This document shows, in pieces, positions 206-58,214 of a stretch of DNA of 64,000 nucleotides. Origin of the DNA: Labia minor (Eukaryota; Arthropoda; Insecta; Dermaptera; Spongiphoridae); contig OY720346.1 in the NCBI GenBank assembly GCA_963082975.1, positions 21,322,720-21,386,719 on the forward strand, given 5' to 3'. Every line of letters starts with the position of its first letter. Within the stretch, counting starts at the first letter, position 1. The notes below the pieces were generated by a model. It ran no database searches and was not told where the DNA came from. It was given only the letters and a program-made list of their open reading frames with translations. A program made the position numbers and the translations under genes.

Positions 206-361
206 AAATTGTCTCGAAGGAGAACTGAACTTTCGAAATTCGGAATGGATTAAATGGCTTAACAAGGGGACGCTCCATCAGCAATTTTATTTAATTTAGC
301 ATTATAATACGTTTTTAGACAAATCGGGGAGAAATTGAACGAAACCTAAATATGAAAAAAA

Positions 362-1085
362 ATAGGTTACGCGGATAAATTAAATATTATAGGAGTTTGG
401 ACAAATTCGATTAAAGATGCATTAGAAAAATTAATACATGCTGGAAAAGAGGTGTTGCTTGAAAATAATAGTGCTAAAACAAATTATTTAGTATTAACAC
501 ACAAAAACATAAAATATGAAAATATAGAAAAATTTAAATACTTGAAGAATAATAATATTCAAGAAGAATTTAAATCAGGTAACGGCTGTTATCATGCAAT
601 AAAGGTCCTTATCTCATAAAAATTATTATTAACGAAGATCAAAATTAAAATAAAAAATAAAAAATTATTTTTCCGGTTGTTTTATATGGGTGTGAGGCAT
701 GGTCTATGACCCTGAGAGATGAGAGTAGATTTAGAGTATTTGAAAATAGAATTCATTTATGGGTCAAAGAAAGATGAGATCACCGGGGAATGGCGGAGAC
801 TGCATAGCGAGGAATTACATGACCTCTATGCATCTCCAGACGTAGTTAGGTTCATAAATTCAAGAAGGTTTCGATGGGCAGAACACGTAGCAAGAAGACT
901 AGCGAGAAATATATTTTTAGCGAGACCGAATGGAAAGTGAGCAAGAACAATGTAGGAAGGAACGTAAGAGAGATGGGATAAAATAGGAGTTGGATGGATA
1001 TAGCTCAGGATAGGGACACTTAGAGAGATGTGTTTGCCGAGGCCAAAAACTTCAGTAAAGCGACTGAAATAGAGATAGAGATAAT
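362..1085 (+). pseudogene. Non-LTR retrotransposon 3' end (LINE family 1, copy A)
   Basis: This is the C-terminal part of a LINE reverse transcriptase. The RT catalytic region reads GYADKLNIIG, so the second aspartate of the YADD box has become lysine. Further on come NIKYENIEKFKYL and, in other frames, YGCEAW-like and LRVFENRIH-like segments. A 73-codon open piece (719-940) contains the RRFRWAEHVARR segment that typically precedes the 3' end of these elements. Stops and frameshifts break the frame at many points. The 3' end is a degenerate GATA-type tail (about 1065-1085). At least seven related fragments lie in this window. The family resembles the elements often annotated in arthropods as endonuclease-reverse transcriptase; I cannot fix the clade. 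Confidence 0.85.
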
Positions 1086-6775: not shown

Positions 6776-6916
6776 TCTGATCATACACTCGAGAGGAATA
6801 CAGTTTCTCGCTATGACGATTATGAGGGCGGAATTGAAGGAGAGGCTACCCGAAAGAAAATTAGCTGGAGTGTCTCCACTCGACTATCTTGCAATTTGAA
6901 TTGGATTAAATAACAT
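6776..6916. repeat. Unique GC-balanced patch ending in a short dispersed repeat
   Basis: The last 39 bases (6878-6916, ACTCGACTATCTTGCAATTT onward) recur at 63076-63114 with about two differences. The rest is not repeated in the window. This may be the end of an unrecognised element. Confidence 0.45.
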
Positions 6917-6935
6917 AATATATAATATAATTTAA

Positions 6936-7130
6936 TTAATTACAAATTATAAATTTAATTTAATTAAATATAAATTTAATTTAATTAATTATAAATTTAA
7001 TTTAATTAATTATAAATTTAATTTAATTAATTATAAATTTAATTTAATTAATTATAAATTTAATTTAATTAATTATAAATTATAAATTTAATTTGATTAA
7101 TTATAAATTTAATTTAATTAATTATAAATT
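6936..7130. repeat. 21-bp AT-only tandem array
   Basis: There are seven to eight copies of a 21-bp unit made of AAATTTAATTTAATT plus AATTAT, with a few partial or variant units at the ends. The repeat phase is exact at 6972, 6993 and 7014. Confidence 0.9.
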
Positions 7131-7204
7131 AAAATTAATAAATAATATTTATTAAACCATGTTTGGCCCTTTGTTGATGGAAATACGTCACGTGTTGGCG
7201 CGTG

Positions 7205-20483: not shown

Positions 20484-21669
20484 TTAGGTTGTCCCATAAG
20501 TTTTTTCCGCGTCACGCTATGAATGAATCTAACTGCCTATGTTTATATATATATATATATATATATAAACATGCAGGCTTATCTCTTAGCCGTTTATGGC
20601 ATCTTATTTAATCATCCCAGAGCTTTTTCAGAATTCGTTTCGTTGGTGACAAAGTCTCTTTAAAATTTTTCTACTATGGAGAGCCAAAAGATCATTTGCG
20701 GCAGAAGAGATTTGCACCGTTTACGGGATTGGTGCTTCGACTATTAGGACCGTCCGCAATTGGTTTAAGAAATTTAGAGCTGGCCACCCAGCAACGACGG
20801 ATATTATCAAGACTGTGCATGCTGAAAATCCACGATACAGTGAGCGCGAGATAGCTGGTGAAACTAACATTCCCAAAACAACGGCACATAAGCATTTAAT
20901 CAAAATGGGATATGCGAGTCGATATGAAGCTTGGGTTCCACACCAATTGACGGAGACCGGCCTTATAAAGCGCGTCCCTACGTGCGATTTGCTTCTACAG
21001 CGACACAAAAGAAATCATTTCTTAAAGAGTCTTGTCACTGGAGACGAGACTTGGATTTTGTATCAAAATGTGGATCGAAAACGGATTTGGTCTAAAGAAA
21101 ATAGACCTTCAACTGTTGCGAAGTCTGGGCTTCATCCGAAGAAGGTTCTTTTGTGCATTTGATGGGACTGGAAGGGTGTACTGTACTACGAGCTCCTTCC
21201 TGAAGGTGATATGATCAATGCTGACAAATTTTGCAATCAACTGAATTAACTAAAAACCGCCATAGCAGAAAAACGGCAAGGTGTAGTATTCCATCACGGC
21301 AACGCAAGGCCGCTTATTGTGTTGATCGTAAGGCAAATATTATTACAGTTTGATTGGGACGTTCTACCTCATCCTCCATACTCCCCATACCTTCCTCCAT
21401 CCGATTATTACTTGTTCCTCTCCTTAAAAATCTCTCTCCGTGGTAAATCTTTCAAATCCATAATCGAAATAAAAACGCACCTAAATGAATATTTTGAAAG
21501 TAAGCCTCAATTATTTTGGAAAGAGGGCATAATCAGGCTTCCTGGGAGATGGAAGAAGGTTAGAGAACAGAATGGTTCATACATAACATAATAAATCAAC
21601 CTTAACCAACAAATATCGTGTATTCATTTCGCATCAAAAAAAGCGAAGAAACTTATGGGACACCCCAAG
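20484..21669 (+). mobile_element. Near full-length mariner element (dead)
   Basis: The left end starts TTAGGTTGTCCCATAAGTTT and the right end is its imperfect inverse around 21650-21668 (ACTTATGGGACACC). TA flanks are at 20482-20483 and 21670-21671. At about 1.19 kb it is slightly shorter than the usual 1.3 kb. The transposase gene fills it on the plus strand. Confidence 0.92.
20676..21591 (+). pseudogene. mariner transposase (D,D34D type), inactivated
   Basis: The ATG at 20676 opens MESQKIICG, then a frameshift leads to the helix-turn-helix region EICTVYGIGASTIRTVRNWF and a second HTH region, YSEREIAGETNIPKTTAHKH. The catalytic domain has the first aspartate in VTGDETWILY. At the second site VFHHGNARP has glycine where the family has aspartate (HDNARP). 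The third, PYLPPSDYYLF, is kept. Two in-frame stops follow CI (21159-21161) and QLN (21247-21249). The C-terminus ends VREQNGSYIT at 21591. A missing catalytic residue plus stops make it non-functional. Confidence 0.95.
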
Positions 21670-22480: not shown

Positions 22481-22770
22481 TAAGCTATTAAAACGTATGC
22501 TAATAAACGAAATTTGAGTAAATTCCCTTTATTTTACATACGAATTTGACACCTCTATTTTTTTGGAAAAATCACGTGTCTGGGCCATATGTATGTATTT
22601 TTTTACCTATTTTTCCCTACTTTCGGTCCAGGCTCGATTACCTCCTTGGGAGGTCGTGTCATGCTCACCTTGTAATTAAATTTTCTTAATCACAATTAAA
22701 ATTAATACAAAAATGAAAAATTTTCTTTTTAGTGATTTTTTCTTTTAGGGATTTTTTCAGTCATGGATAT

Positions 22771-23004
22771 TTTTATTTAGGGATTTTCGGTTTTAAGGAT
22801 TTTTCTTTTTAGGGATATTTGGTTTTAGGGAGAGAGAGTTTTGACTTTTATGGATTTTTTCCTTTAGGGATTTTTACCCGTTTCCATTTTTATTTAGGGA
22901 TTTTCGGTTTTAAGGATTTTTCTTTTTAGGGATATTTGGTTTTAGGGAGAGAGAGTTTTGACTTTTATGGATTTTTTCCTTTAGGGATTTTTACCCGTTT
23001 CCAT
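22771..23004. repeat. 117-bp tandem duplication of AGGGAT-rich sequence
   Basis: Two essentially identical 117-bp units start at 22771 and 22888 (TTTTATTTAGGGATTTTCGG). Inside each unit the shorter word TTTAGGGAT and variants recur every 15-30 bases. It forms the right subterminal region of the MULE remnant. Confidence 0.93.
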
Positions 23005-23475: not shown

Positions 23476-24108
23476 CCCTCTTCTCGTTTAATAGAACCCA
23501 ATTTTTTGATGTAGTATGAGTATATATATAAAGTTTAACATAGATCTATGAGTATTTAATTGAGTATATTTTTTCAAAATTTAAACATTTTTATCACATT
23601 AGTAGTATATATATATAGTTGAACTTTAATATTATTTAACAAATGCAATTCAATATTTTATAAAATAATAATTTCATAAACGATTAATAGAAATTTCTAA
23701 CTGAAAAAATTAATATTACGGTTGAAGCTGATGTTTTTTGAAAATGTTTTTGATATCAAGTCAAATTTTGATTAATAATAAATTTCACAACTTTCGAGTA
23801 AAGCGATAATATAGCTAATAAATATTATCAAATATTTAATTATATAAAAATTATTGGAATTAAAACAAATAAATAAAACAATTAAAAAAACTATTTAAAA
23901 GTTAAATGATATTTTATTTAGATTGAAAATTTAAAACGAACATTCCAATGGGAAATTCCATAAAAAATACTTTTAAACTTGGAAGATTATATCTTCTATA
24001 TATATAAAAAAAGGTTTTTGTCTGCACATTGCTCAGAATTTAAAATTTTTTGCATATCTTCGCGTTTCATGACCCCTAGAATCCAAGAGTGACTTTAGAA
24101 TTTTTCAC

Positions 24109-24139
<31 letters not shown>
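24109..24139. repeat. (GTCT)n microsatellite inside the Helitron 5' region
   Basis: Seven to eight perfect tetranucleotide units, a common feature of arthropod Helitron 5' segments. Confidence 0.97.
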
Positions 24140-25429
24140 CGGAAAATTACTATTTTATAGACTCAGAATTGGCTGAACCGATTTCTTTGAAATTACATCA
24201 CAATATTCTTATATACCTCTAGAGTAACATAGGCTATAAATTTTATTAATATCTTATCAATAACCGCAGAAATTAATTTTTTAAAGTTTATATAATTCTC
24301 CGTGTTGTTCATTCAAGAGCAGCTCGCGGCTCACTGTCGGCCTAGCGGAATCATTTCAAACAATGAATTATCATAGCTATTCCCAATCAAAGAATTATTA
24401 TAATATTTCACATTTTATTTTAAATTCTAATATACAAATATCAATTCAATTAAATAATTTATTCTAAAAGTTCTCAATTTAATTAAAATATTTATTAGAT
24501 CATATTTTTATCTTAAATTATTTTTTATTTAATTTAATATTTCTTCTTTTCTATAATATATATATAATATATAAATTTTATCATTGAATAATAAAAAAAA
24601 ATATTATTTAACCTGAATTAAAATGACTGAATTATATTATCTTTGTTTTTTATTTTAATTTAATGACTCTATTATTAATTACTAAATATATATATATATA
24701 TATTATATAAAAATTAAAATATGATGATATAAAGTTGTTTTAAATTTTTGACATTTTTAAATTGGGTATATTTTTTAAATTTATTAAAATGTCTTTTTTA
24801 TTTATTATGTTTCAAAGATTCATTTTTATTATGTGATATTAATAAAAAATAACGATGCTCTGTGCAAGTCGAATCATGTTGCACATAATTAAATAACAAT
24901 TGCCAAACAAAGAATATAATATTTTTTTAAATTCTTATATTTAAATATCATTTCAATTAAATAATTTATTCTAAAAGGTCTCATTTTAATTAATTTAATA
25001 AAATATTTAAATCACCATTCAATTTTTTATTAATAGGCTTCTTTTTTTATTTTTAATTTTTAATAAATTCTCTTTTTTTGATATGATATTAATAAAAAAT
25101 AATATTAAATTGTATATAAATATAAAAATTAGAATATTTGAATTTTTTTAAATTTTAACACATGTAATCAATCATATGCATTAAGAATGGAAAATTTTTA
25201 AAATCAACTTGCTATAAAATTCAGAAAAAAAATACTGATATATAGAATATATAGACTATTCGAATATAATTTAAAACTCTTTCTCTCCTTCTATTTTAAA
25301 TTAAAAAAACGGAGTTTTAAGAAATTTAGATGCCATATGCAACATGGGTGGGTAAATGAATTGGGCTGGAAGAGGAGGCAATTTATAATTTTCTTCTAAT
25401 TCAGATTTAGGACAAATCGTACAACATTA

Positions 25430-27035
25430 TATCAAATCTCGCTAAGAACATACAATATTTTTGTACACAAATTATTCAGAGTATTGGCTAAGCGTATCAC
25501 TCACAATCAGTTTATATTGAAATTTATATAAATTAACAAAGTAAAAATTTTTATTTGTTTAAATTTTATTATAATGAATCAAAAAAAATTAAATATATAG
25601 ATCACATGATTAAGAGAAGCAAAAAACTTGACAGAAAATAACTGTTGGATGGAGGTCGGACATGACAGAAACTGTAAGCGAAATCTTCATATTGCGACTA
25701 ATAATTTTCAAATCCCCTAGCACCACAGAATTAGATAAGTTTCTTTTAAGGGAGGAAATTAACTATGATCTAAAAAAATTAATAAATGATCTTAATAATA
25801 AAAAAACAAATAAATCAATTAATTTAAATTAATACTATTTATGAATGTATATATTGGTAATTTATCTATAGTTTTATACCGTTAATTTTTATAAATTGTC
25901 TCAAGTCTCTATTTTTGCATTTTCTCAAGTTTCATTATAATTAAAAATATTCAATAATAATCTAGCAATGAAAATAAAAAACCAAAATGTAATGATCAAG
26001 AAATATTATACTCTATTTCACTATTATATCATATACAATACTTAAGAACCATAGGCGGAGGAAATATTAGATCTCATTGCTGGTTCAGGCCAAATCGAAC
26101 AACATTAATTAAGATATTTTCATTATGACAGATATTAGGAAAAAAACCGCTAATGCAATATTTCTGTTCACTAATTATTTGTAGACTTTAGTAAAACATA
26201 GGCATGACTCAATAGATTCGGATAAACTTTTTCAAATTTTGATCTTCAAATTTGTCTTGAAGATAGTAAAAAAAGAGTAAGATGCGGAAATCAATTGTAA
26301 AATATTAGGTTACCCAGATGACTTAAATATAATAGGAGATTCGGCAATTGCAATTACAAACAGCGAGGAAAAATTAATGGAGGTTTGAAATTAATAGTGA
26401 TAAGAAAAAATATTTAGTAACAAAGAGGAAGAGTATTAACATACAAAATCTTAATATACAAAATGTAAAATTTGAATATGTAGAAAAATTGAATGTAATC
26501 ACGAAGGATAATAATATTTGAGAAGAATTTAAATCGGGGTTGCAATCGGGAGACGCCTGTTATCTTGCAATAAAGAGGCTTATCTCATCAAAATTATTAT
26601 CAAAGGGAATATATAAAAAAATTATTTTCCTGTTGCATTATATGGGTGGGAGGCATGGTCTATGACCCTTGGAGATGAGAGTAGATTCAGAGTATTTGAG
26701 AATAGGATTCTTCCCTGCATTTATTGGCCAAAGAAAGATGAGGTCACCGGGGAATGGGAGAGACTGCAGAACAAGAAATTGCATGGTCTCTCTGCATCTT
26801 CAGAAATAGTTAGGGTTATAAAAGGGAAAAAGCTGCGATAGGCAGGGCACGTGGCTAGAATGGGAGAGGAAAAGGATATTGGTGGGGAGACCGATTGGAA
26901 AACGTCCGCTTGGAAAACCAATGACGTGTGGGAAGGGACGTAAGAGAGATGGAACAAGGGCTCAGGATAAGGACACTTGGAGAAATGTGGTTGTTGCGGC
27001 TAAGAACTTTCGAGTATCTTTGAGCCACATAGGTA
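25430..27035 (+). pseudogene. LINE family 1 reverse-transcriptase remnant inside Helitron B
   Basis: Pieces in order: ISLRTYNIF...LFRVLAKRIT (about 25437-25500, RT finger region, tentative), then FRPNRTTL (about 26090), LFTNYL and DSIDSDKLFQILI (about 26180-26250, palm motif A region). Then GYPDDLNIIGDSAIAI (about 26315; the YADD box reads YPDD), IQNVKFEYVEKL, YMGGRHGL-like and VFENRILPCIYWPKKDEVTG (about 26690-26750). The end is RWAGHVARM-like sequence and a short TAGATAGATA tail at 27029-27045. Frames change repeatedly. The strongly conserved order shows descent from a LINE RT; the protein is dead. Confidence 0.8.
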
Positions 27036-27204
27036 GATAGATATAACATATACAATAATAATATATATAATTAATATAGTGATTAAATTAAAATATATTT
27101 TTTAAATAAGAACACAAAAAGAAATGAATGTTTTATGTAATATACTGATTGAAACAAAATGGATGAAAACCTTTTACTACTTTCAACCACCAAATACTAT
27201 GTAC

Positions 27205-27274
27205 CACTCGGGGGTACAGGGGGCGGAGCCCCCGTCTAGGTGTGAAGAGCGCCGAAGGCGCTCTGAGCAGCTAG
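27205..27274 (+). other. Helitron 3' terminus with stacked hairpins
   Basis: Within 70 nt there are three potential hairpins. GTACC...GGTAC lies near 27201-27217. GGGGGC-GGA-GCCCCC lies at 27219-27233. The terminal GAGCGCC-GAA-GGCGCTC lies at 27247-27263, seven nt before CTAG. The last is the expected Helitron termination hairpin; the others are extra. Confidence 0.75.
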
Positions 27275-28608
27275 TAAATATATAAAAGTATAATAAATAT
27301 TACTTTAATAAAAATTAATCGTACTTCTATGAGGGACTAGCAGTTCATTGGTAATCGTTCGTATTTACTATTTTATTTAGTTTTTATTTCATAAAGAAAT
27401 ATTTTATAGTAATTGAAAGAGAAAATTTTGCCAGGAAGCCCCAATATCCCTCTCAGATTCTGTAAACCCTATTCAAAGCTCCATAAAGGGTCAATCTGGA
27501 CTCCGTGGGAACCTCTGATCTTTGAACATATACAATTATGTAACTATATATTTAAATTTAATTACACATATACATATATTTTGAAATTACAAAATCGTGA
27601 CTGTGCATTTTTTTTAAATTTACCTTGAGTTTATAAAAAAACAAAACAATTTATTAACTTATAAATTAGTAATTCATAATTATCTTAGCTCAGATCGGAA
27701 AAGAAAATTTGGTGAGAAGCAGAAGAATAGGAAATAAATAAAGAAGACATAAATTAGAAGTAATTGGAGAAGTGTGGTTTCTGCTAACAAGAACTTTTGA
27801 ATCAGTAGCACTAACTATTTATTAGTTAATTTGATTAAATTTAACCAGGATTAATATTTAGGATATAAATAAAATATTTAATTACTTTTAGATATTGAAG
27901 ATTTAAATAAAAAAACAATTTACAAGTAAACCCGACTTGTGTTCAAAATAAGATTTGTCTGCCATTTGGCTCTCGGTTACCCAGGGAACTGGAAAGGAGG
28001 AATCCACTTTCAAGGATTCGTTGGCCTGTGTATGTATGCAACCCGCGCGAGAGCCCCCTACCCATATGTCACTGTTTGCAACCTTTTATCTTTGGCGACT
28101 TATGCTCATAAATTTAAAGACCAAAAGGTATAAGTTATTTTTCATTCAAATTATCAAATACATAAAAAAAATATTGCCGAATAAAAATATTCTATTTTCA
28201 TAATATTCAAAAATAAATTCAAATATTATATAGACAAATTTTTAAATCAGGAAATAAATAAAACAATTTTTATTTATCTTTTCAATGATTGAAACCAATA
28301 CGGATTCAATGAATTAATCTAGTGAAATATTTAATTATTTGATTGTTGTTTAAAATGTGTTAAATAAATCAAAGAACCTATTGATTGTTTAATTATTGTG
28401 AGAGTTTAGATTTTTTAAAAGCTAATTAAAAGTTAATTATTTTTTACAAATTATATTTTAAAAGTTTAATTTATCGAGAATTTTTTTTTAGAAAATTTTA
28501 ATAAATATTTAAATTATTGATTTTAGAGTTAATTCCTAGCTATTTTAGTCATTATAAAATCAAAGAAAAATTTAAATTTAAAATTATAATATCTATAAAT
28601 ATAGTATA
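27275..28608. other. Spacer between two inverted Helitron chimeras; one unique GC island
   Basis: Apart from the LINE scrap at 27690-27805, it is AT-rich. The stretch 27940-28110 is GC-balanced and open on two plus-strand frames (64 and 82 codons). No domain or codon pattern persuades me it is coding. Confidence 0.5.
27690..27805 (+). pseudogene. LINE family 1, short 3' fragment
   Basis: The words GGAGAAGTGTGGTT-CTGCTAA and AAGAACTTTTGA match the 3' end of the family (compare 44452-44480 and 58050-58085). The rest is too decayed to align. Confidence 0.55.
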
Positions 28609-29390
28609 CTAGCTGCTCTTCACACCTAGACGGGGGCTCCGCCCCCTGTACCCCGGAAGGGTACATAGTATTTGGTTGAAAGTAGTAAAAGGTTTTCATC
28701 CATTTTGTTTCAATCAGTATATTACATAAAACATTCATTCTTTTTGTGTCCTTATTTAAAATATATTTTAATTTAATCAGTAAATTAATTATATATATAA
28801 TTATTGTATATGTTATATCTATGTGGCTCATCGATACTCGAAAGTTCTTGGCCGCAACAACTACATTTCTCCAAGTGTCCCTATCCTGAGCCCTTGTCCC
28901 ATCTCTCTTACCTCCCTAATTACGCGTCCTTGGTCTTCAAAGCGGACGTTTTTCGATCGGTCTCCCCACCAATATATTTTTCCTCACCCATTCTAGCCAC
29001 GTGCCCTGCCTATCAGAGCGTTTTCGCTTTTATAACCCTAACTATTTCTGGATATGCATTGAGGTCATGCAATTTCTCGTTATGAAGTCTCCGCCACTCT
29101 TTCTTTACTACCTTCAAGAGAAATTTGAAGATCAAAATTTGAACGAGTTTATCCGGATCTATTGAGTCACATAAGTATGTTTTACTAAAGTTTACAAATA
29201 ATTAGTGAACAGAAATAATGAATTCGCGATTTTTTTTTCTAATATCTGTCATAATGAAAATATCTTAATAAATGTTGATCGATTTGGCCTGAATCCGCAT
29301 TGATATCCTCCTAATATTTCCTAATATGGTTCTTAAGTATTGTATATGTTATAATAGAGTATAATTTTTCTTGATCATTTCATTTTGATA
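28609..29390 (-). mobile_element. Helitron/LINE chimera, copy C (5'-truncated)
   Basis: On the minus strand it ends in CAGCTAG at 28609, followed by T. Sequence 28625-28830 matches the 3' part of Helitron B, including GGGGGCTCCGCCCCC. From 28830 to 29390 it matches the LINE part of B, with a deletion around 29095. The similarity stops at about 29390 without a TC start. The terminal GAGCGCC...GGCGCTC hairpin is missing: 18 nt have been lost between two GAG words. This copy faces copy B tail to tail, 1.3 kb apart. Confidence 0.8.
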
Positions 29391-29879
29391 GTTAATGCCT
29401 TTTAATTAGATATAATCCAATCAAATTTTTCATTTAATTTCTCAATTAAAAATAAATGTCTTGGTGTTGGTCAATTTATTATTAATATGGTAATTTAAAC
29501 ATAGTTTAATTAAGGATAAGATGAATCGATAGTATGAGGCATTTATTTATCTGTATTTAAATAAATATAATTGGGTTAGGTTAGATACGATTGGAAAGGC
29601 ACCTTTGATAGACATTCAAATACAATCAACAAAAATAAAAAAAAAATTTATACAAAAAAAAATGTACAAAAGAAAATAATGTAAATTTGCACAGCTATGA
29701 TTCTGTCATCTCATAAATATTAAAGAGTGAAATTTCAAAGTTTTTAGAAAAAAATTTGACTCAAATATTCGCAGTTTTTCCCTATGACTTCTTGTTCTTT
29801 ATCTATCATAGATCTCATTTTCAAATCACTTCTGTTCTTTAGAGACGAATAACACCAACACCTCATTTTTGCTGCCCTC
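29391..29879. other. AT-rich DNA without recognised feature
   Basis: A short GGTTAGGTTAG word lies at 29576-29587. Nothing else was found. Confidence 0.55.
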
Positions 29880-30307
29880 TTTTGAACAAAATTTCTTGGC
29901 ATTAAGAAAATCCTTTAGCTACCGTTCCGACTGATATGCTCGATGCGGCAAAATATCCCAACCATTTTACGCAATTTTTTTTCTAAAGGGGTTGTCGAGC
30001 GTTTCGATTAATGAAATATGACTTTTCAGTATTTAGTCAGTTCTGGACGACGCTTCATTTTAATTGCATCGACTTCGACAGTTGGCGACAGTAAATTGAG
30101 CCGTAAGGAGCAGCTCATGATACATGATTTAGTCAATTTTTGCGGTGGGGTGTCTACCGAGATAAGGTTCATCTTTAACATCAAAATTTCCAAAACGAAA
30201 GCGACCGAACCACTTTTTACATGTTGGTAATTGTACTGTGTGGGGATCGTAAACTGCACAAATTTGCTTCTTCAATCGATCTCTCTCGATTATAAAATGA
30301 GTAACAT
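29880..30307 (-). pseudogene. mariner transposase, N-terminal fragment
   Basis: On the minus strand ICAVYDPHTVQLPTCKKWFG (about 30270-30200) followed by RFRFGNFDVKDEPYLGRHP matches the first helix-turn-helix and linker of SETMAR-like mariners (family pattern TCRKWF-RFRSGDFD-KD-PRSGRP). The rest toward 29880 is frameshifted and only loosely mariner-like. No terminal inverted repeats were found, and a hAT-like end abuts it at 30308. Confidence 0.75.
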
Positions 30308-30335
30308 CAGTGATTCTCAACCTGTGAGCGCGTGA
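30308..30335 (+). mobile_element. hAT-like terminus fragment
   Basis: CAGTGATTCTCAACCTGTGA is very like the terminal inverted repeat of Charlie/Buster hAT elements (CAGTGGTTCTCAACC). It breaks the mariner fragment. No matching right end was seen in the next kilobases. Confidence 0.5.
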
Positions 30336-30339
30336 CAAT

Positions 30340-33260
30340 ATCCAAGAAAAAAAATATTATTTAGAAAAGTTGGTTAAATGACTGAATGAAAAGGACACAT
30401 ACACAATTTGTTATTTATACATGTTTTTTATATTTAGTTTTATATATTCTCGATTTATTATTTATTTCATTAATAATATAGTTGATAAAACTTCCTCAAT
30501 CTGGATTATTTATTCTTATTTTAATCTTTTATAGTATAGTATCTATTAATTTAATAATATTAACTTTTCTTACAATAATTTTATATCAGAATTAAGTTTG
30601 TTCACTGAATAGGAATGAATTGAAAGGTTGAATCATGACACATTTCATTTCAATCTAATTTATTTTAGTCGATACTCTATCTAATATAAGTAAAGTGTAT
30701 TAAAAAGAGTATATATACCATATATTCTATATATATTCTCTTACGGCGTGCACTCACCCCCTGGTATTAAAATTTACTTAGAGTTACTTAATAAAACATA
30801 TAAATGAATAGTATGAATTTATAGATATTATATGTAAGATTTCATCAAGATCAATATTTTATATTTTTTTTTATTAATTTACCTTAATGCGAAGGTGAAG
30901 AATGATGAGAAATAATGATTTAATTTCATTAATGCAGAACACAAAATCATATTTAAAAAATAAGAACCGATATATACAATATTCGTATATGTCATGATTA
31001 TAAATACCACAAAGCAACTGAAATTTTTTTTATTTTATAAATAAAATAAAAATTATCTATGCACATTTTATTATTTATAAAAGAAAATTCATCTTAAAAA
31101 TATTATTAAATAATTCTATGGAAAATATTTTTTATAACAGATAAGCTTTCAAGAAGAGTTTCTCATAACCCCCACCATCAAAAAAATGTATTACTTTCTT
31201 CATCTAACAATTGTTGTTGTAATTACAAAGAATATTTATAAGTAAAACTAAAAACAAAACTGTTTACCTTGAATGTTTGCCATATATTCATCCATTTTGA
31301 TTTTAATTCTAATTTGTAAGCAACACAAGTCGTTCCTGTCAGGCTTAGTTTAACATGGAATTTTGTAATGGAATAAAGTTTGAAATAGCCCTAAACATCC
31401 CTTGCAATCCATTCATACTTCAAAATCATTTAAGTGTAAATTTAAAATAAATAAAAAAAAATTGTAATTAATATTAATTAATGTTATAATAATAAAAATA
31501 TTCCAAATATTAATGTATAACAAAATTTAATTAAATCCTCATCCTTGTTTTTAATAACTAATGTGTAATAATGATTTTGTTAATATATTAATATATACAG
31601 GATCAGTTGAGAATTTATCTGTATTTCAAAAGTATTTATTCAAATGAAACAAAATATAAATACAATGTATAATATCTTTAATATCTTTTGTTACACCTAT
31701 TTCTATAAAAACAAAATCAATTTTTATGTTACGAAATTAATTTTTACAGTAGTAAAATAAATAAATTAGATACAATTTTTCTTTATATAATTGTTTTGAG
31801 TTAATAATATAAGTACTAACAACTACTAAATAACTTACTATGTATATATGTATATATAAACATTCTAGAATATAAATTATTTTAATAAATTTTTCATCTT
31901 TAGATTTATTTAATGATCTATATATATATATATGTATATATATATACATATATATATATATATAAGTATATATATAAACCTCTTTTGAGAGTAATGTTAA
32001 ATTTTATAGAATGTAAATTTTAGATTGCACATTTTAAGTCTAATAAAAAAAATGAAATATTATTTTAACGATCTCTTCTCCCTGTTGAGTTGATATTACC
32101 TTTATTTCTATTTAACAGTCTTTTTATATTGCAATAAACATAAACATTTCAAATTTTATATAGAGTTGTATAGGTGTATATAAATATAGAAAAAGGGGTG
32201 TTATTTTTGATTTCTTTATAGTTTATCAAAAGATATTTAAATTTTAGAGTTTAAGAGAAAAAGTTGTTGAAACTCTCTTTTCAGATTTGTGATTACTAGA
32301 TTAAATTATAATAAGATGTATTAAGGAGTGTTTTCAAGGTAATAGATAACAAGGCAAAGAAGATAAATTTACTGTAAAGAAATAAATAAGTTTCTTATCG
32401 AACCACGTTCATTTCCAGCAGGTAAAAATTGAAAGAAATCTCCAAAATACAAGTGCCATTAAAAATCCATTTTTATATCTTTTATATAACCCATTTATGT
32501 ATATATTATATATAACTTATACCGTCTAGATAGAATGGTTGGCTTACAAAATTCCAATTATCCTGCAGTGCAAATTTCAGAATAATTTTCTAAATTAATT
32601 AACAGTAATCGTAGAATATGCAGGGAAACATTGAATCTGTATATATATATATATTAGCGAGTTATATCCTTCTCATAATTTCCATTTGGGCTCTTTTAAA
32701 CCGGATGATCTGGTTTTGGATTCTGGATCTGAATGAATTATTATTAATACATATATATATATATATAAAATTTAAGGTTAATTAAATTTCATAGAATTTA
32801 AAGCTGAGCATCTCTACAAGATTAAGGTTCTGAAAAGCTTTCATAATATATTTCTACGTTAGAGACAAGTCCAAAAAATAAAAATGTGGAGAATTAATGT
32901 TTGTTTAATACATTCATTATTAAACAACATATTCAGAAGTTAATAACAAGGCTGTCTGACCTTTAAAAAAAAGGAAAGCACCAAGTAAATCCTTTAATAG
33001 CTAAGTAGGATATTATTTATTCCATTAAAATTAAAAAAAAAATAAATAAATACGAATGGAGTTCTATTAAGAGTGTATTTTTAAATGAAGTAGTTGAATT
33101 TGGCTTGAAATGAAAAAAAGTAATAATCAAATCAATTAAAACTATATTTTCTATGTGAAAGAACTTTTGGTTATAAAAATATTAAAGGATAGTGTAAATA
33201 AAGGTTTTTATTATAATATTTTTTTTTAAATTAGAATATTTTTTGCTAGATGTAAAAATT
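30340..33260. other. Gene-free AT-rich stretch
   Basis: It contains a long mixed (TA)n region at 31915-31975 with GTATATATATATACATATAT-type palindromes and another at 32638-32655. Nothing else is recognised. Confidence 0.6.
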
Positions 33261-33267
33261 ATTTTAA

Positions 33268-33901
33268 AATAAGTTGACCTGTGGCCAGGTCCGAACCGAC
33301 CAACGGTTTGAAGTAAATTAATTTCCAGCTACAGAAACAATTTCAAATAATTTTAATGTCTATTAATGTAATAAAAAACAGATATGGATACATAAATAAT
33401 AAATATAAACATTTTTAATTTTATTTTATTTATAATATATATGCAAGACAAGGCTGTGACGTCATGAATGGCTGGATGACATCATATAATTTTAAATCAA
33501 GAAAAAACTAATAAATATGATTTTTCTCGAGGATAAAACCAATACAAAGTGCATGATTCGTGGTGATATGTAAAAAATCTCCTCATGTGAAATTTGGTGT
33601 GAAAATAACCCTTCCCTTCCTATCGTCGATCGCTAATACTACCACTTCCGGTTTCCGGATTTGCACCAAAAGTTGATCAATTCATCCCACTGATGCATTA
33701 AGTAAATATACCAAATTTCATCAAAATCGGTTGGGCCGTTCAGGCTGTACACATCTATACGGACGGACGGACGGACAGACATCATGCTAAAAATACTTTT
33801 TTCTGTTAAGAAAATGCATGATTCGTGGAGATATGTAAAAATCTCCACATGTGAAATTTGGTGTGAAAACAATACCTCCCTTACTATCGTCGGTCGGTAA
33901 A
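33268..33901 (+). repeat. Dispersed repeat family P, copy 1 (full)
   Basis: It starts AAGTTGACCTGTGGCC and ends near CGTCGGTCGGTAA. It contains two direct copies of a block of about 85 bp (about 33550-33640 and 33818-33901), each with ATGATTCGTGG-GATATGTAAA and GTGAAATTTGGTGTGAAAA. Between them lie ACCAAATTTCATCAAAATCG and a (GGAC)n run (33760-33780). GAACCGACC-ACGG near the start and its inverse near the end suggest inverted subterminal repeats. No protein is coded. Other copies: 34698-35135 and 54998-55606. Confidence 0.9.
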
Positions 33902-34697
33902 AATTATAAGAATAATTCATGGTGAATATATTTAATTTATTTATTTATACAATAAGATTGATTTAATGTCAAAAGTAGAGAAGTAAAAACAGATTTAAAT
34001 AAAATATTCAAGTAAAAAGATAGATATAATTTTTCTTTTTCAATTTTAAAGTAAAGTTAATAAATTATATTTTCTGATTGAGTTCCAGACTTTTTGTCTC
34101 GTTCTCATTTTGAACATACTTATTGATTATGCTGTAGAGTTGTTTTTTAAGCAGCCCCTCTCAAGTGCTCAGAGATACTAATGACGCTAGTAATTATACA
34201 ACTATCGAGAGAAAACAGTGCCAGTAGAGAGTCTCTAATCACAATCTGACAGAACAACGCTTTCAGTTTATAATCAGCATTCGATACGATATGTTACAAA
34301 TGCCTTACGAGTGGGGGAGTGCTCATTGAAAAGCAAGAGGACAAATATATACGTAGATAATGGCTGATTTACATTGTCATCTACTTAAATATTTATAAAA
34401 AGAAGATAAATATATGATTAAAGTTTAAATTTAAATGAAATGATTAAATCAAATTAATTTTTAATTAATTTCAGTTATTAAATAATATTTATTTTTTTCA
34501 ATTAAAATTAATAAATTGTATTTCATGAAATTTTTGTTTTTTTCTTTATTATTGGATTTAGGGAAATTAAAGTTGGGTGGTGTAAGTTAGCATCAATATT
34601 CTAGATAAAATAGCAAAAGATCATCTTCTTTTCTAGATGGTTAAACATTTCTAAACCTTTAAGGATGTTAAAATATTATATATAACTATTATAAAAA
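33902..34697. other. Spacer between two repeat-P copies
   Basis: A GC-balanced unique patch lies at 34085-34330; the rest is AT-rich. No frame or element was recognised. Confidence 0.5.
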
Positions 34698-35135
34698 ATA
34701 AGTTGACCTGTGGCCATGTCCGAACCGACCGACGGTTTGAAGTAAATTAATTTCCAGCTACAGAAACAATTTCAAATAATTTTAATATATCTATTAATGC
34801 AATAAAAAACAGATATGGATATAACATAAATAATTTTAATTTTATTTTATTTATAATATATATGTAAGACCAGGCTGTGACGTCATGAATGGCTGGAAGA
34901 CGTCATATAATTTTAAATTAAGAAAAAACTAATAAAGATGATTTTTCTCGAGGATAAAACCAATACAAAGTGCATGATTCGTGGTGATATGTAAAAAATC
35001 TCCTCATGTGAAATTTGGTGTGAAAATAACCCTTCCCTTCCTATCGTCGATCGCTAATACTACCACTTCCGGTTTCCAGATTTGCACCAAAAGTTGATCA
35101 ATTCATCATACTGATGCATTAAGTAAATATATCAA
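34698..35135 (+). repeat. Dispersed repeat family P, copy 2 (3'-truncated)
   Basis: It matches copy 1 closely from its start up to the block before ACCAAATTTCATC, then stops at about 35135. It lacks the (GGAC)n run and the second 85-bp block. It lies 0.8 kb downstream of copy 1 in the same orientation. Confidence 0.9.
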
Positions 35136-36810
35136 AAATGGATGTAATTAGCTCTCAGGATAATTATATGTATATATGTATATATATCCTAATATAGAGA
35201 GAACATATTTTAACCATAGTTTCTATTTAATACTTATATATATGTTACAGTAAATGTACACTCTTGGGAAATGTAGGCTTTTATCATTGAATGTGTGCAT
35301 ATAGAAATTAAGTAATGGACCAAATATTATTTATTTGAACAAGAATTGCTATTGTGACACTTTTGCACAATATTCCAGCATTTTCACAACTGTAATTTTT
35401 GAGGAACATATTCTTTTGCAGTTGCATCTTTTAAACATTGTCCACTAGTAAGGGGGACTGCATTCCTATAATTTCTCTTACTATTTCTCTACATTTTGAG
35501 GAACATCCTCGTAAAATATAAACTTTTGTTCGCAAGGTTAGGTTGTAAGGTTAGGTCTGCATAAACATAACCTCATAGATCGATTAGTGGCCGTTCCCGA
35601 ATCAATGCTTCGTATGCTCACATTTTTTACCAAAACGGCATGGTCATTGTAAGTTCAGTGTACTTTTCCCTTATTTGAAATCGTAAATGATGGTTGAATG
35701 CACTTTACCTTAATTAATCTTTAATAAAAATTAAAAAAAAATTATTTTTAAGAGAAGGACATATGACCTCGTGAAATAATAAATAATAAATATGTGTATT
35801 CTATTTTATTAGTTCAATTCGGGAAATAAAGGTATTTTAATTGTAAATTTTTCAAAGTAATTTAAAAATTAAAATATAATTGAGAATAACTAATTGTTCT
35901 ATAATATAATCCTGTAACAATATAATTTATAAAATATTTATTAGCTAGTTTCTAAGTTGCGCATTTTAATATGAACATGTTCTCAATGTTCATGTTTTTC
36001 ATTTTGGTTCAGCAGTTGATGAATCTTCCTATATCACATGAAATTAAATTAAAACCCTCCTTCCATATCCCGACTCATTTATTAAGTTATGCACTAACTG
36101 GATGTAATCTAAGAAGGAAGCGCACGCGCATAGTTCTCTGAACTCTGATAAGTAATCTACTCCTTATAAATGATAGTATAATGTTCATGAGCATGATATT
36201 AATCATAGTCGTGTATAAAGTTATGTTCCGTTAATAAAGATCACCAATGAACAAATGTTATAAATTTATTAAGCAACAATATAAATGTTTATTTATTTTT
36301 TTTTATTATTTAGTTGCAGCAGAATCGATCCAATAGAAATTAAAATTGGATTAGAATACTTGGAATAGAAGCCGCCTAATCAATATTACAAGTAATTCTT
36401 AGCTATTTTCATATTTTCTAAAGATCTTTAAAATTGCATCACCGGAAATGGTGTCTTTAATTTTCGAAAATTCTAGGAATAATTTTTTCTTCTTCGTATA
36501 TTAAACTATCCATCGGTTTCAATTATATTTTCAACTGAGTTCGTCAAATTCAATTAGATTGAATTCAGAATCGATATTACTCCCCTCTCTCTAGATTTCC
36601 GCCTTTCTCTTCCTCTCTCTCTCTCATTCTACAGGGTTAGCTGACCTCGAAAAATAGGGACATCGAAACAATCAGAGTAGAAAACCAAGCCAATGTTGAT
36701 GACATCGATTTCTTTAATTACATTTTATAATTTCTTTATTCTAAAAACTAATAATTTTATTACTTAATTTTCATTATTTGATCTTACAACATATTTTCAT
36801 TTATTTAATA
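35136..36810. other. Gene-free stretch
   Basis: It has mixed AT-rich and GC-balanced patches (35540-35650 with GGTTAGGTT words; 36060-36240; 36530-36690 with a CTCT run). No transposon ends or credible frames were seen. Confidence 0.5.
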
Positions 36811-37790
36811 CTAGCTGATCAGAGCGCCTACGGCGCTCTTCTCATCAAGACGGGGGCTCCGCCACCTGTACCCCCGAAGTAATACATAGTATTTCGTTGA
36901 AAGTCTGTATGTAAAAGGTTTTCATCCATTTTGTTGCAATCAGTATATTACATTATATTATCATATCTTTTTGTGTTCTTATATAAAAGATATTTTAATT
37001 TAATCAGTAAATTATATATTACTATTGTATTTGTTATATCAATCTATCTATCCCTGTGGCTCTACGGATCTCGAAAGTAACCCCAAGTCTGAGCTATAAC
37101 CATCCGATATAACTCCTACCCTGTCCCATCTGTCCCACGTCCCTTCCTACATTGCCCACTCACCATGTTCTTGGTCTTCCCAATCACACAGGACGTTGAC
37201 CATTCGGTTTTTCCAAATATATTTCGCCGATCTTTAATCTACCATGACCCCTTCCCATCCCAGCCTTCTCTATTTTATAACCTTAATATCCTTAACTATA
37301 TCTGGAGATGCATAGAGGTCATGCAATTCCTTGTTATGCCATCTCCGCCATACCCCGGTGATCTCATCTTTCTTTGGTCCTTAAATGCTGCAAACAATCC
37401 TAATATCAAATTCTCTAAATCTACTTTCTCCCAAGAACATCGACCACCCATATAATACAACAGGAAAAATAATTATTTTAAATATTTCAATTTTCATCCA
37501 TTTTGATAAAAGTTTTGATGAGTTAAGCCTCTTTACTGTATGTTAACAGACGTTACCCGATTGCGACCTCGATTTAAATTCTTATCCAATATTATTATTC
37601 TTTGTAATTATAGAATCTAAGTATTTAAATTTTTCTACATTTTCAAATTCTACATTTTGTATGTTAAGGCTTTGTGAGTTAATAATGTTTTTCTCTCTTA
37701 CTAAATATTTTGTTTTATCCCTATTAATTTCAATCCCCATCTTATTTCCTGCCTCAATTCCATCATACATTACGTGTATACAAAGTGTCG
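36811..37790 (-). mobile_element. Helitron/LINE chimera, copy D (5'-truncated)
   Basis: On the minus strand it ends GAGCGCCGTAGGCGCTC, TGATCAG, CTAG (36811-36814), then T. The loop differs from copy B (GTA instead of GAA) while the 7-bp stem is kept. The region 36835-37060 matches the Helitron 3' part of B and C. From about 37050 to 37790 it is LINE family 1, including minus-strand GNKMGIEINRDKTKYLV and NIQNVEFENVEKFKYL (37770-37600). Similarity ends near 37790 beside a pair of short direct repeats. No TC start was found. Confidence 0.8.
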
Positions 37791-43784: not shown

Positions 43785-44512
43785 AGGAATTAGGTTACGC
43801 AGACGTCTTAAATATAATAGGAGATTTGGCATTTGGAATTAAAGATAGCGTAGAAAAATTAATCGAAGCTGGATATTAATATTTCTAAGACAAAATATTT
43901 AGTAACAGAGAGGAATAGTATTAACACCCAAAGCCTTAACATACAAAATGTAGAATTCGAAAATGTAGAAAAATTTAAATTCTTAGGATCTGTAATCATG
44001 AAGGATAATAATATTCGAGAAGAATTTAAATCGAGGTTGCAATCGGGAAAAGCCTGTTATCATGCAATAAAGGGGCTTATCGCGTCAAAATTATTATCAA
44101 AGGGGATCAAAATTAAAATATATAAAAAAATCATTTTGCCAATTGTATTATATGGGTGTGAGGCATGGACTATGACCTTGTTAGAGGAGAGTAAATTTAG
44201 AGTGTTTGAGAATAGGATTCCTTGCAGCATTTATGGGCCAAAGAAAAAAAAGGTCACCAGGGAATGGTGCATAACGAAGAATTGCATGACCTCTATGTAT
44301 CAATGGGAGAGGAAAGATTGGCGAAAAAAGTATTGGTGGCGAGACTGAGTGGGAAGACCAAGGAAGCGTTGGGTGAAAAATGTAGGAAGGAAGGTGAGAG
44401 AGATGGGAGAGGGTAGGGATTGAATGGTTGTGGCTCAGAATAGGGATACTTGGAGAAGTGTGGTTGCTGCAGCCAAGAACTTTCGAGTTCCATAGAGCCA
44501 GATATGATATAT
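43785..44512 (+). pseudogene. LINE family 1 3' end, copy E (best preserved)
   Basis: It starts LGYADVLNIIGD (YADD box reads YADV), then NIQNVEFENVEKFKFLGSVI. A 116-codon open piece (43998-44348) reads NNIREEFKSRLQSGKACYHA, IKIKIYKKIILPIVLYGCEA and ESKFRVFENRIPCSIYGPKK. This is the thumb and connection region after the RT active site. A frameshift near 44260 leads to NEELHDLYVSMGEERLAKKV in the overlapping 44222-44416 frame. The 3' end is CTTTCGAGTTCCATAGAGCC and a weak GATA tail. The family's endonuclease and most of the RT are absent, as in 5'-truncated LINE insertions. Confidence 0.9.
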
Positions 44513-51073: not shown

Positions 51074-51341
51074 TTACAACATATATAATTTATATATTAT
51101 TTTAAACAAATTTGTAACTTATATTTATATATATATACAACTTTGTTTAAAATATTGCAATACGAACTGTTTTATAAATTGTAATCTCTAACATAAAATA
51201 TATATTTATTATATTATATTGTCAGTGTTAGATACGAATTTCTACTGGACACATACACCCCTATAAATTAAATCGCAGAAGTTTATAAATTAACCATTCG
51301 TGTTTGTTATTAACGTGATTTATTTTTGTGCCCATTTCAAT

Positions 51342-53198
51342 ATGGATAAATTTTTATTTGGAAAACAATCTACTTCTCGGGCAGAAGATGATGAACCTTG
51401 CACAAGCAGTATTGCTAAGAAAAGAAAGATTGTGAATAGAAAATACTTCGAAGACTACATTCGTTATGGCTTTTATTGGTGCGGCGATGAAGCGGCTCCA
51501 AAACCGTTATGTGTAATTTGCAACGAACAATTAACAAACGACTCAATGGTGCCCAGTAAACTAAATCGCCATCTAACTTCAAAACATCCGAATTGTGCTA
51601 AAAAGGATATATCATATTTTCAAAGGATTTTGGCTCAAAATTTAAAACAAAAAAAATTTATGATGTCGACCGTATCTGTTTCCGATAAAGCATTAGAAGC
51701 TAGCTATTACATTGCAAGATTAATAGCTCGTGAAAAGAAACCTCATACTATTGGAGAAAAACTTATTAAACCAGCATGTATGGAAATTGTGCGAGTTATG
51801 CTTGGACCTAAAGAGGTTCAGGAAGTGAGTAAGGTTTCACTGTCAGCTGAAACTATTAAAAGACGTATTGGCGACATGTCAACAGATATTTTGAACACGC
51901 TTATTTTGAAATTGATCGCAGCTAACAATTTTGCTCTTCAAATTGACGAGTCAACGGATATTAAAAATCAAGCACAATTAATTGCAATTGTACGTTTTGT
52001 TGGCGAAGATTGCATAAAAGAAAATTTTTTATTTTGTAAAAAACTTTCCGAACGAACTACTGGAGAGGATATTTTTCGAGTAACTGATGATTTCTTCAAA
52101 ATACATAATCTACAATGGAGTAACTGCATGAGTATTTGTACTGATGGCGCCGCAGCAATGACTGGTAACATAAAGGGTTTTGTTGCCTTTGTAAAACAAC
52201 AAAATCCGGCAATACAATTTACACATTGCTGCATACATCGGGAAGTATTGATGGTGAAGAATTTACCAGAACAACTTTTAAAAACTATGAATGAATGCAT
52301 CAAAATTATAAATTTTATTAAATCAAGAGCTTTAAATACAAGAATTTTCGAAATTCTTTGTGAAGAAATGGGTTCAGAACATAAATCTTTATTATTTTAT
52401 ACTGAAGTACGTTGGTTATCCCGAGGAAAAGTGTTGGCTAGATTGTTTGAACTTCGCTGTGAAGTGCATCAGTTTTTACTAAATCAAAATATGCCCGAAC
52501 TCGGCCAGCACTTCGAAGATAACAGTTGGATCGCCAAACTTGCATATATGGCTGACATTTTCGACCATCTTAATGAACTTAATAGAAAAATGCAAGGTCC
52601 GAATGAAAACTTATTAACCTGTTCCGACAAATTGCAAGGGTTCAAAAATAAACTGGAACTTTGGCAGAATGAACTAAGTAACAACTCTTTAGAAATGTTT
52701 CAAAGGGTTCATAATACAATAATTGAAAATAGGCAATTAATTATCGATCTGGCCCAATCCCATTTAACAACACTGGAAAATAATTTCGACTACTATTTTC
52801 ATTCGATTAAAAGTGAAGAATATGATTGGATTCGCAATCCTTTTGCAACTAATGCAAAAAAATCTGTTGAAGCATTTTCTCTTAAATTTAAAGAAGAGTT
52901 TATTGAACTGAGTAACGACGGGACGTTAAAACTTACTTTTGGAGAAGTTCCATTGGATGTTTTCTGGATTTCGGCTAAGAATGAATATCCTCAAATTTCA
53001 AAACAGGCTATTTCAATTTTAATCCCCTTTTCAACGACATATTCATGCGAACAAAGCTTTTCGACACTTCTTTTAATTAAAAATGATAAGCGGTCTTGCT
53101 TAAAAAATCTCGATCAAGAACTTCGAGTTGCACTATCAAATATCGAGCCCAATATAAAATACTTGTGTTCCTTGAAACAAGCTCAAGTATCACATTAA
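51342..53198 (+). CDS. hAT transposase, ZBED/Buster-like, intact (618 aa)
   Basis: DDE transposase that would cut and paste this element by binding its subterminal repeats. I place the start at the ATG at 51342; the 14 codons upstream lack an ATG. The N-terminus has a basic, likely nuclear-localising stretch, KKRKIVNRK (26-34), and a BED zinc finger with C57, C60, H77 and H82. The catalytic triad is visible: D202 in LQIDESTDI, D268 in CTDGAAAMTG and E570 in YSCEQSFSTL. The conserved VRWLSRGKVLARLFEL (356-371) and the C-terminal hATC dimerisation region (about 535-605) are present. Length is typical for ZBED5/FAM200-like hAT proteins. No stop or frameshift interrupts it. A polyadenylation signal AATAAA lies at 53284. 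The chief uncertainty is whether an upstream exon exists. Confidence 0.97.
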   Translation: MDKFLFGKQSTSRAEDDEPCTSSIAKKRKIVNRKYFEDYIRYGFYWCGDEAAPKPLCVICNEQLTNDSMVPSKLNRHLTSKHPNCAKKDISYFQRILAQNLKQKKFMMSTVSVSDKALEASYYIARLIAREKKPHTIGEKLIKPACMEIVRVMLGPKEVQEVSKVSLSAETIKRRIGDMSTDILNTLILKLIAANNFALQIDESTDIKNQAQLIAIVRFVGEDCIKENFLFCKKLSERTTGEDIFRVTDDFFKIHNLQWSNCMSICTDGAAAMTGNIKGFVAFVKQQNPAIQFTHCCIHREVLMVKNLPEQLLKTMNECIKIINFIKSRALNTRIFEILCEEMGSEHKSLLFYTEVRWLSRGKVLARLFELRCEVHQFLLNQNMPELGQHFEDNSWIAKLAYMADIFDHLNELNRKMQGPNENLLTCSDKLQGFKNKLELWQNELSNNSLEMFQRVHNTIIENRQLIIDLAQSHLTTLENNFDYYFHSIKSEEYDWIRNPFATNAKKSVEAFSLKFKEEFIELSNDGTLKLTFGEVPLDVFWISAKNEYPQISKQAISILIPFSTTYSCEQSFSTLLLIKNDKRSCLKNLDQELRVALSNIEPNIKYLCSLKQAQVSH

Positions 53199-57819: not shown

Positions 57820-58115
57820 AAAAATTTAATTGACCTCCATGCATCTCCAGATATAGTTAGAATTATAAAATCGAGAAGGCTGCGATGGACAGGGCACGTG
57901 GATAGAATGGGAGAGGAAAGAATGGCGAAAAATATATTGGTGGGGAAACCGAGTGGGAAATGTCCGCTTGGAAGACCAAGGAAGCGGTGGGTGGATAATG
58001 TGGGAAGGGAGGTGAGAGAGATGGGAGAGTAGTGGTTCAAAATTTGAATACTTGGAGAAGTGTGGTTGCTGCGGCCAAGAACTTTCGAGTTCCGTAGAGC
58101 CACAGAGATAGATAG
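57820..58115 (+). pseudogene. LINE family 1, 3' end, copy F
   Basis: It reads LHASPDIVRIIKSRRLRWTG (57835-57890), then HVDRMGEERMAKNILVGKPS, then RPRKRWVDNVGREVREMGE and the final NTWRSVVAAAKNFRVP-like end, followed by a TAGATAGATAG tail (58104-58118). About 100 codons are nearly continuous in two frames. It represents a severely 5'-truncated LINE insertion and is the cleanest view of the family's C-terminus. Confidence 0.88.
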
Positions 58116-58214
58116 ATAAAAATTTAATAAATAGTATCCTTGATCAGATCAAAGATAATAAGAACTTAAATATAGCGCCTATTATATGTTTCTAAATTTC
58201 TAAATTTTTAATTG

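Follow-up and report, generated by a model that had tools for sequence, protein, structure and literature searches.

The question raised by this locus is how a LINE reverse-transcriptase fragment came to lie within what resembles a Helitron, and whether both have been copied jointly. In the window, i.e. the whole stretch of 64,000 nucleotides of Labia minor DNA that was analysed, the first-pass annotation had described three copies with the same order of LINE coding sequence, GATA-like tail, common noncoding sequence, hairpin and CTAG followed by T. This order was confirmed, since alignments of the tail of copy 1 (27030-27276, 247 bp) covered 214 columns in copy 2, with 93.9% matching (E 5e-90), and 253 columns in copy 3, with 83.4% matching (E 4e-72), and CTAG was present at 27271-27274 (plus), 28609-28612 (minus) and 36811-36814 (minus), with T next on its own strand in each case. 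The hairpin reported before CTAG in all three copies was found in copy 1, but in copy 2 the terminal hairpin is deleted and only the upstream one is left. Eight copies were found in 144 contiguous kb, all of them with a LINE 3' end and its GATA-type tail joined to the shared tail at the identical place; they comprise copies 1 to 3 (c1, c2 and c3) and L018a, L018b, L019b, L022a and L022b at further loci. We consider it quite probable that the c1 family represents non-autonomous Helitrons whose ends are canonical (TC after A; hairpin and CTAG before T) and which carry, close to the 3' end, a 5'-truncated piece of a LINE, most likely acquired through LINE retrotransposition, and that a helper presumably drove their spread. 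The features are listed in Table 1; the host genome is AT-rich.

Table 1. Features of the putative Helitron-LINE chimera and comparison LINE copies in the window.
Feature	Position	Strand	Basis or relation
Copy 1 (c1): whole chimeric, probably non-autonomous Helitron, A/TC ... CTAG/T	23992..27274	+	sequence; 5' end common with L018b, 3' end with other copies
Helitron 5' terminus and subterminal (CTGT)n at 24109-24139	23992..24139	+	related 5' ends at L018:8070, L006:1911-2037, L008:1660
AT-rich Helitron body (mid1), common to L018b, partly to L022a and L022b	24240..25405	+	
mid2, partly common to L022a, its end to copy 2	25406..26045	+	
Decayed 5'-truncated LINE fragment from the reverse-transcriptase region to the C-terminus	26046..27036	+	similarity to LINE copies; translations
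GATA-type LINE tail, joins X at 27045/27046	27030..27045	+	BLAST/alignment of 8 copies
Module X	27046..27153	+	also within a different dispersed repeat
Module C: Helitron 3' terminus	27153..27274	+	diverged relative at L015:216-341
Upstream hairpin	27219..27233	+	DNA fold of last 70 nt
Terminal hairpin, 6 nt 5' of CTAG	27246..27264	+	DNA fold
Copy 2 (c2): LINE + X + C, CTAG/T, terminal hairpin deleted, upstream hairpin kept; 5' end not recognised	28609..29387	-	
Copy 3 (c3): LINE + X + C, CTAG/T; 5' end not recognised	36811..37790	-	
Comparison LINE copy without X or C	357..1052	+	
Comparison LINE copy without X or C	43785..44512	+	
Comparison LINE copy without X or C	57820..58118	+	

The LINE fragment of c1, in which part of the region 5' of 26304 is missing, is 80.2% similar to the LINE copy at 43785-44512 and 72-80% to L014; a second, weak LINE-like match is present at 25395-25547 of c1. 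When a relative, L003:1899-2090, was compared with Pfam, it gave a sub-threshold match to RVT_1 (E 3.4e-5; 24.1 bits versus a cut-off of 29.6) and a weak one to UPF0270, and Pfam gave no family for the LINE pieces of c1 and L018b, for the LINE pieces other than L003 or for P0001. The PDB matches were weak (E 0.015 to 0.11), LINE-1 ORF2 and R2 being among them.

With regard to the origin of the shared tail, 21 LINE 3' ends were found in 314 kb, and 13 of them lack the tail (no X), which indicates that it is not LINE sequence; four of these 13 were detected by only one of six end queries. The X-likeness of the 13 flanks, evaluated against 200 shuffles each, was marginal for L003 (3/200) and for window position 27800 (12/200) and ordinary for the other eleven (45/200 or more shuffles). 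The LINE itself, then, does not normally end in the 240-bp CTAG tail in these 314 kb, and the comparison of 3' ends agreed with the earlier statement that the window LINE copies at 362, 43785 and 57820 lack it. The approximately 200 bp that had been taken as one common noncoding sequence are indeed shared among the copies but do not form a single unit, being composed of modules X and C. X also forms part of another dispersed repeat, which is about 270 bp long and occurs twice at L001 and once at L003, without LINE or C. Likewise, the diverged relative of C at L015 ends in CTAG followed by T and is preceded by 215 bp with neither LINE nor X; its match to C gave E values of 4e-5 to 7e-9 in pairwise BLAST and of 6.9e-32 in nhmmer with a profile that included L015, and it was absent among the matches at E 1e-5 when C alone was the query. 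That X and C belong to a LINE lineage as its 3' end, and that the copies spread by retrotransposition, was rejected because X is missing from 13 of the 21 LINE ends, and we regard it as highly improbable: several copies do vary in their 5' truncation while their 3' end is constant, as LINE retrotransposition would give, but a relative of C exists without LINE, three copies have Helitron-type 5' ends, and CTAG precedes T at every intact end.

The ends were evaluated by the canonical Helitron criteria, namely TC after A, CTRR then T, a 3' hairpin, independent sites and Rep/helicase in autonomous members. CTAG followed by T was observed at 7/7 intact ends (seven of the eight copies) and in L015, whereas L019b ends inside the first hairpin, before CTAG, as does L019a, which has X and C without LINE. 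Together with the LINE ends that lack the tail, these termini uphold the initial assignment of the 3' part to a Helitron rather than to the LINE. The 3' folds were more stable than shuffles with z values of -4.0 to -5.1 in five of the eight ends and of -2.5 and -2.0 in two; for the last 70 nt of c1, folded as DNA, z was -4.53 and 0/200 shuffles were equally stable, and the L015 end folded no better than shuffles (z 0.75). At the 5' side, a TC start preceded by A was found in c1, L018b and L022a (3/8 copies). Copies c1 and L018b have a common 5' end (97.4% over 39 bp), body and 3' end; L022a has a different type of 5' end, L022b a related but altered one, and a Helitron 5' end was not recognised in c2, c3, L018a and L019b (4/8 copies). 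The TC of c1 lies at 23992, after A at 23991, and since the stretch aligning with L018:8070 begins three bases on, at about 23995 and after T, the exact 5' base of c1 is not certain. The (CTGT)n repeat of c1 had been absent from the first-pass annotation. Two helicase motif patterns had no match in the six frames of the window, which suggests that the copies seen are non-autonomous, and a complete helicase of this family was not found with motif patterns in the window and in L001-L017.

When 600 bp of 3' flank were compared among seven copies (with the end of c2 set two bases short), no mutual match was obtained at E 1e-5, which indicates that these seven copies are separate insertions and not duplications. 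In agreement with the 7/7 CTAG ends, the amplification proposed earlier was therefore borne out as copying to separate sites: the chimera is present at at least seven of them, presumably moved by a helper enzyme. A stretch of 63 kb contains all eight copies, and uniform placement equalled this clustering in 3 of 200,000 draws, a figure that overstates it because the region was extended where copies lay. Such proximity might suggest that one locus was duplicated segmentally or in tandem, but this was rejected on the tested flanks, and it is also at odds with the mixed orientations (two minus, six plus) and with the wide range of divergence between copies, so that we consider it extremely improbable.

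As to how the LINE was acquired, one junction with X is common to 8/8 copies. BLAST extends to LINE position 746 directly before X in six of them, and in c3 and L022a the junction was established by alignment; L022a lacks about 19 bases just 5' of the GATA-type tail. At the junction with X the LINE runs to its natural 3' end, which in the free copies L006, L020 and 57820 reads GAGCCACAGAGATAGATAGATA, and the cargo shows the fixed 3' end with repeat tail and the truncated 5' ends of a LINE. Because a randomly placed capture would seldom yield this junction, insertion of the LINE into the Helitron fits better, and the earlier view that the Helitron had captured the LINE was not supported. Uptake of foreign DNA by end bypass or filler DNA is a Helitron behaviour described in PMC4778049 and PMC6544945, and the internal position of the LINE agrees with the filler-DNA model; nevertheless, a capture at the DNA level, with no retrotransposition into the Helitron, would have no reason to stop at the natural LINE 3' end, GATA-type tail included, at 8/8 downstream junctions, and we judge it a rather unlikely origin, though not a negligible one. 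According to the preferred reading of retrotransposition into the Helitron, a (GATA)n-tailed LINE would have inserted between the body and module X of a Helitron copy, leaving the Helitron end (X and C) intact 3' of the LINE. Since this end stayed intact downstream, Helitron and LINE could be copied jointly, and a Rep/helicase supplied in trans by a putative helper would carry both to new sites by rolling-circle transposition.

The LINE had also been proposed to have been acquired once. In the best LINE tree, c1, c2, L018b, L019b and L022a are placed with a LINE piece from L001 on one branch (support 100/99), and c3, L018a and L022b form one side of another (97/94). The two groups stay apart in this tree, but the forks that place free LINEs between them are unsupported, and a single clade of all eight chimeras, with the L001 piece kept inside, was not rejected (AU p 0.217). 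A single acquisition is supported for the first five copies; it was not established for c3, L018a and L022b, and for all eight copies it is undecided. In favour of the preferred reading, LINE and X diverge about in proportion, both within the main group (means of 0.110 and 0.063, respectively) and between the groups (0.249 and 0.139); against it, the values from c3 to L018a/L022b are 0.248 and 0.203, a different proportion. The tree bears on the possibility that the GATA microsatellite of X is a repeated landing site at which LINEs inserted more than once, the two groups being separate. Their separately supported branches with free LINEs in between are what such landings would produce, and at L001 (about 5930-5950) the repeat that contains X includes a GATA run, with no LINE present. 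The lack of support for the intervening forks and the AU result, however, weaken this explanation, and L022b, a member of the smaller group, carries the common Helitron body 5' of its LINE (76.7% over 159 columns); we consider it unlikely.

The L001 piece comes from an unlinked locus (L001:5150-5320, minus), at which a helicase motif (QGQTLKCCGIHLQSPCFSHGQLYIAC), the one match in a motif search of L001-L017, runs in frame into LINE sequence (EYVITQIGKK). This helicase scrap matches Helraiser residues 1426-1455 (E 5e-4). It might derive from an autonomous Helitron with the C-terminal part of a LINE reverse transcriptase right after its helicase, translated as a Rep/helicase-reverse transcriptase fusion, which we regard as very unlikely. 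If the junction recurs in other copies, the origin of Helentron-like fusions, with a LINE part on a Helitron helicase, would be directly testable.

The chimera provides a clear natural example of one mobile element spreading the sequence of another, and the junction kept in eight copies of differing divergence allows the order of events to be reconstructed. Among the matches listed, in their titles and the beginnings of their abstracts, no published Helitron family with a LINE reverse-transcriptase fragment was recognised. The acquisition resembles self-insertion of a LINE with subsequent hitchhiking, and surveys that discard cargo derived from transposable elements would overlook such a route. 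The silkworm survey, as described in PMC3789558, reports 3724 captured gene fragments and new Helitrons that arose through combination or the gain of a new 5' or 3' end, and it dropped proteins related to transposable elements from its capture list, so that LINE-type cargo would go uncounted there. By their terminal features alone, the c1 copies resemble the non-autonomous insect Hel-2 elements (BmHel-2 and OnHel-2), for which PMC4344730 describes 5'-TC, subterminal (CTGT)n, a 3' hairpin, CTAG and A/T flanks; they differ from these in the LINE reverse-transcriptase fragment inside. With the bat Helitrons Helraiser and Helibat, described in PMC4778049 as having TC/CTAG ends, a 3' hairpin terminator, new 3' ends and foreign sequence, they share the TC/CTAG ends, the 3' hairpin and foreign cargo, whereas what they carry is part of a LINE, attached through that element's own 3' end, and no complete helicase was found in the searches above. 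Helentrons, in which a CR1-like endonuclease is attached C-terminally to the helicase (PMC4067079), offer a precedent for a Helitron relative acquiring a piece of a LINE. In contrast, the LINE piece of the c1 family extends from the reverse transcriptase to the C-terminal end and is not an endonuclease, and the element ends in CTAG followed by T without intact coding sequence, whereas at L001 a helicase end joins a reverse transcriptase.

Copy 1 opens with a 5' end of Helitron type, in which (CTGT)n occurs, followed by an AT-rich body, a decayed LINE fragment spanning the reverse transcriptase to the C terminus, a GATA-type tail and two noncoding modules, X and C. As the first-pass annotation had described, the same order of LINE and noncoding tail is found in the three window copies (copies 1, 2 and 3), all of which contain LINE, X and C. 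The noncoding sequence is indeed shared, but it is not the single unit described there, since X also lies within a different dispersed repeat, twice in L001 and once in L003, with other sequence on both flanks. C is the Helitron end: a diverged relative, likewise ending in CTAG followed by T, stands at L015:216-341 with neither LINE nor X in the preceding 215 bp examined; this relative was too weak to appear in the E 1e-5 search with C. Directly beside the X repeat of L003, the stretch L003:6290-6560 (-) is open under the invertebrate mitochondrial code; it looks COX1-like and is probably nuclear mitochondrial DNA. Together with the types of repeat present, this stretch marks the genome as probably that of an animal.

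The genome measures 604 Mb in 71 contigs, and all counts relate to 314 kb of it (a contiguous 144 kb plus 170 kb from other places), comprising the window (C4:21322720-21386719; 27% GC), adjoining stretches L018-L025, and L001-L017, 17 spaced 10-kb samples of contigs C1, C2 and C4. Five further LINE-X-C copies were detected, all downstream of the window and no more than 24 kb from its end. The LINE-X junction has an identical position in all eight LINE-bearing copies: in six, BLAST matches end on one and the same LINE base, and for copy 3 and L022a the alignment gives the position. About 19 bases are missing immediately before the tail in L022a, and L018a and L022b have degenerate GATA tails. 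The junction was not found in the 17 spaced samples, nor in L020, L021 and L023-L025. At L019:3817 and L019:6452, two copies break off within the first hairpin, and in both ATAAAAAAATA begins no more than one base further on; this could reflect termination that came too early, or a coincidence in AT-rich sequence.

Coordinates of the chimeric copies, their modules and the X-bearing repeat
Feature	Position	Strand	Remarks
Copy 1	23992-27274	+	start TC preceded by A; end CTAG followed by T
Module X	27046-27153	+	in copy 1
Module C	27153-27274	+	in copy 1; two hairpins
Copy 2	28609-29387	-	
Copy 3	36811-37790	-	
L018a	L018:6141-6473		LINE-X-C
L018b	L018:8070-9783		both ends present; 1.7 kb
L019a	L019:3645-3817		X and C without LINE; truncated at both ends
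L019b	L019:5977-6452		LINE-X-C
L022a	L019:9544 to L022:1315		LINE-X-C
L022b	about L022:1845 to L022:3167		LINE-X-C
Dispersed repeat	L001:5864-6122, L001:6317-6474, L003:6540-6810		about 270 bp; shares X; unlike flanks on both sides

To which element the 3' part belongs was examined with six LINE end queries, which detected 21 LINE 3' ends in the 314 kb. X and C came next in 8 and were absent in 13, 4 of the latter resting on a single query. When the 13 flanks lacking X were scored against X with 200 shuffles each, no clear likeness was observed, two being marginal; in every one of the eight chimeras, none of the 200 shuffles reached the score. X and C were therefore rejected as the LINE's own 3' end. 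All seven intact 3' ends have CTAG followed by T, and the assignment of the 3' part to the Helitron, made in the first-pass annotation, is upheld.

The same annotation had the LINE acquired by the Helitron, on the premise that Helitrons capture foreign sequence, and the chimera then amplified. Amplification is supported by the seven CTAG ends and by their flanks, among which no mutual match was found at E 1e-5 over 600 bp (the end of copy 2 being placed two bases short). Capture fares less well. Three free LINE copies (in L006, in L020 and at 57820) end in GAGCCACAGAGATAGATAGATA, others end similarly, and the chimeras meet X at this point. Target-primed reverse transcription naturally stops at the LINE end, whereas DNA-level capture by a Helitron seldom would. 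We thus prefer a route, its insertion step being one that we infer, in which a 5'-truncated LINE would have inserted into a Helitron by target-primed reverse transcription and rolling-circle copying would then have spread the whole Helitron with its LINE. The pre-insertion site was not found in the 314 kb; one X repeat of L001 carries a run of GATA units but no LINE, and the LINE could have used a target of this kind.

In the LINE tree, copies 1 and 2, L018b, L019b, L022a and a LINE piece of L001 fall on one side of a branch (100/99), and copy 3, L018a and L022b on one side of another (97/94). The best tree sets free LINEs between the two groups, but the forks there are open, and a tree that joins all chimeras was not rejected (p 0.217). 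Among members of the main group, mean distances are 0.110 (LINE), 0.063 (X) and 0.061 (C); from one group to the other they are 0.249, 0.139 and 0.079. LINE and X are proportional here, as one acquisition predicts, and C is more conserved, as predicted for a functional end. The smaller group is off this proportion (copy 3 to L018a/L022b: LINE 0.248, X 0.203). L022b also has Helitron body upstream of the LINE. One acquisition, as claimed earlier, is supported for the five main-group copies, and we lean towards extending it to the other three.

An unbroken 634-aa frame at 51294-53198 (+) of the window, with a hAT dimerisation domain (E 1.2e-7), possibly encodes an intact hAT-type transposase. 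Broken frames at 20650-21591 (+) and 60471-61311 (-) are, from their translations, presumably mariner-like. An inverted repeat of 275 nt (63221-63495 and 63726-64000; 99% complementary) reaches the window edge. Tandem repeats occupy 6885-7168 and 22769-23002, respectively of units of about 21 bp and of a 117-bp unit that is present twice without a difference.

Copy 1 and L018b have a common 5' end, body and 3' end, copy 1 starting three bases earlier; L022a has a different TC 5' end type, with (GTAT)n, of which L022b is an altered form. Members of the family thus seem to have exchanged 5' ends, a process that section 4.6 of PMC3789558 describes in other Helitrons. Besides the 5' end of copy 1, two Helitron-like types were seen, one carrying (GTAT)n (L019:9544 and L022:1845) and one in which (CTGT)n lies near the start (L005:5572 (-), L005:7121 and L018:4677). 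All eight LINE-bearing copies lie within 63 kb, a clustering reached in 3 of 200,000 draws of uniform placement over the 314 kb, a figure biased by the choice of region. Such clustering is not new, since a review citing Yang and Bennetzen 2009 (PMC12477314) reports that plant Helitrons prefer insertion sites close to existing Helitrons.

At L001:5150-5320 (-), a helicase end continues in frame into LINE reverse transcriptase. This LINE piece falls in the clade of copy 1, with which it shares 92.5% identity across 308 bp; shortly past the junction the frame runs into a stop, and no X or C follows. The simplest reading is a deletion within an element with helicase upstream and LINE downstream; a bold possibility, for this one locus, is that it might be a working helicase-reverse transcriptase fusion. 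The helicase scrap matches residues 1426-1455 of the bat Helitron Helraiser (E 5e-4).
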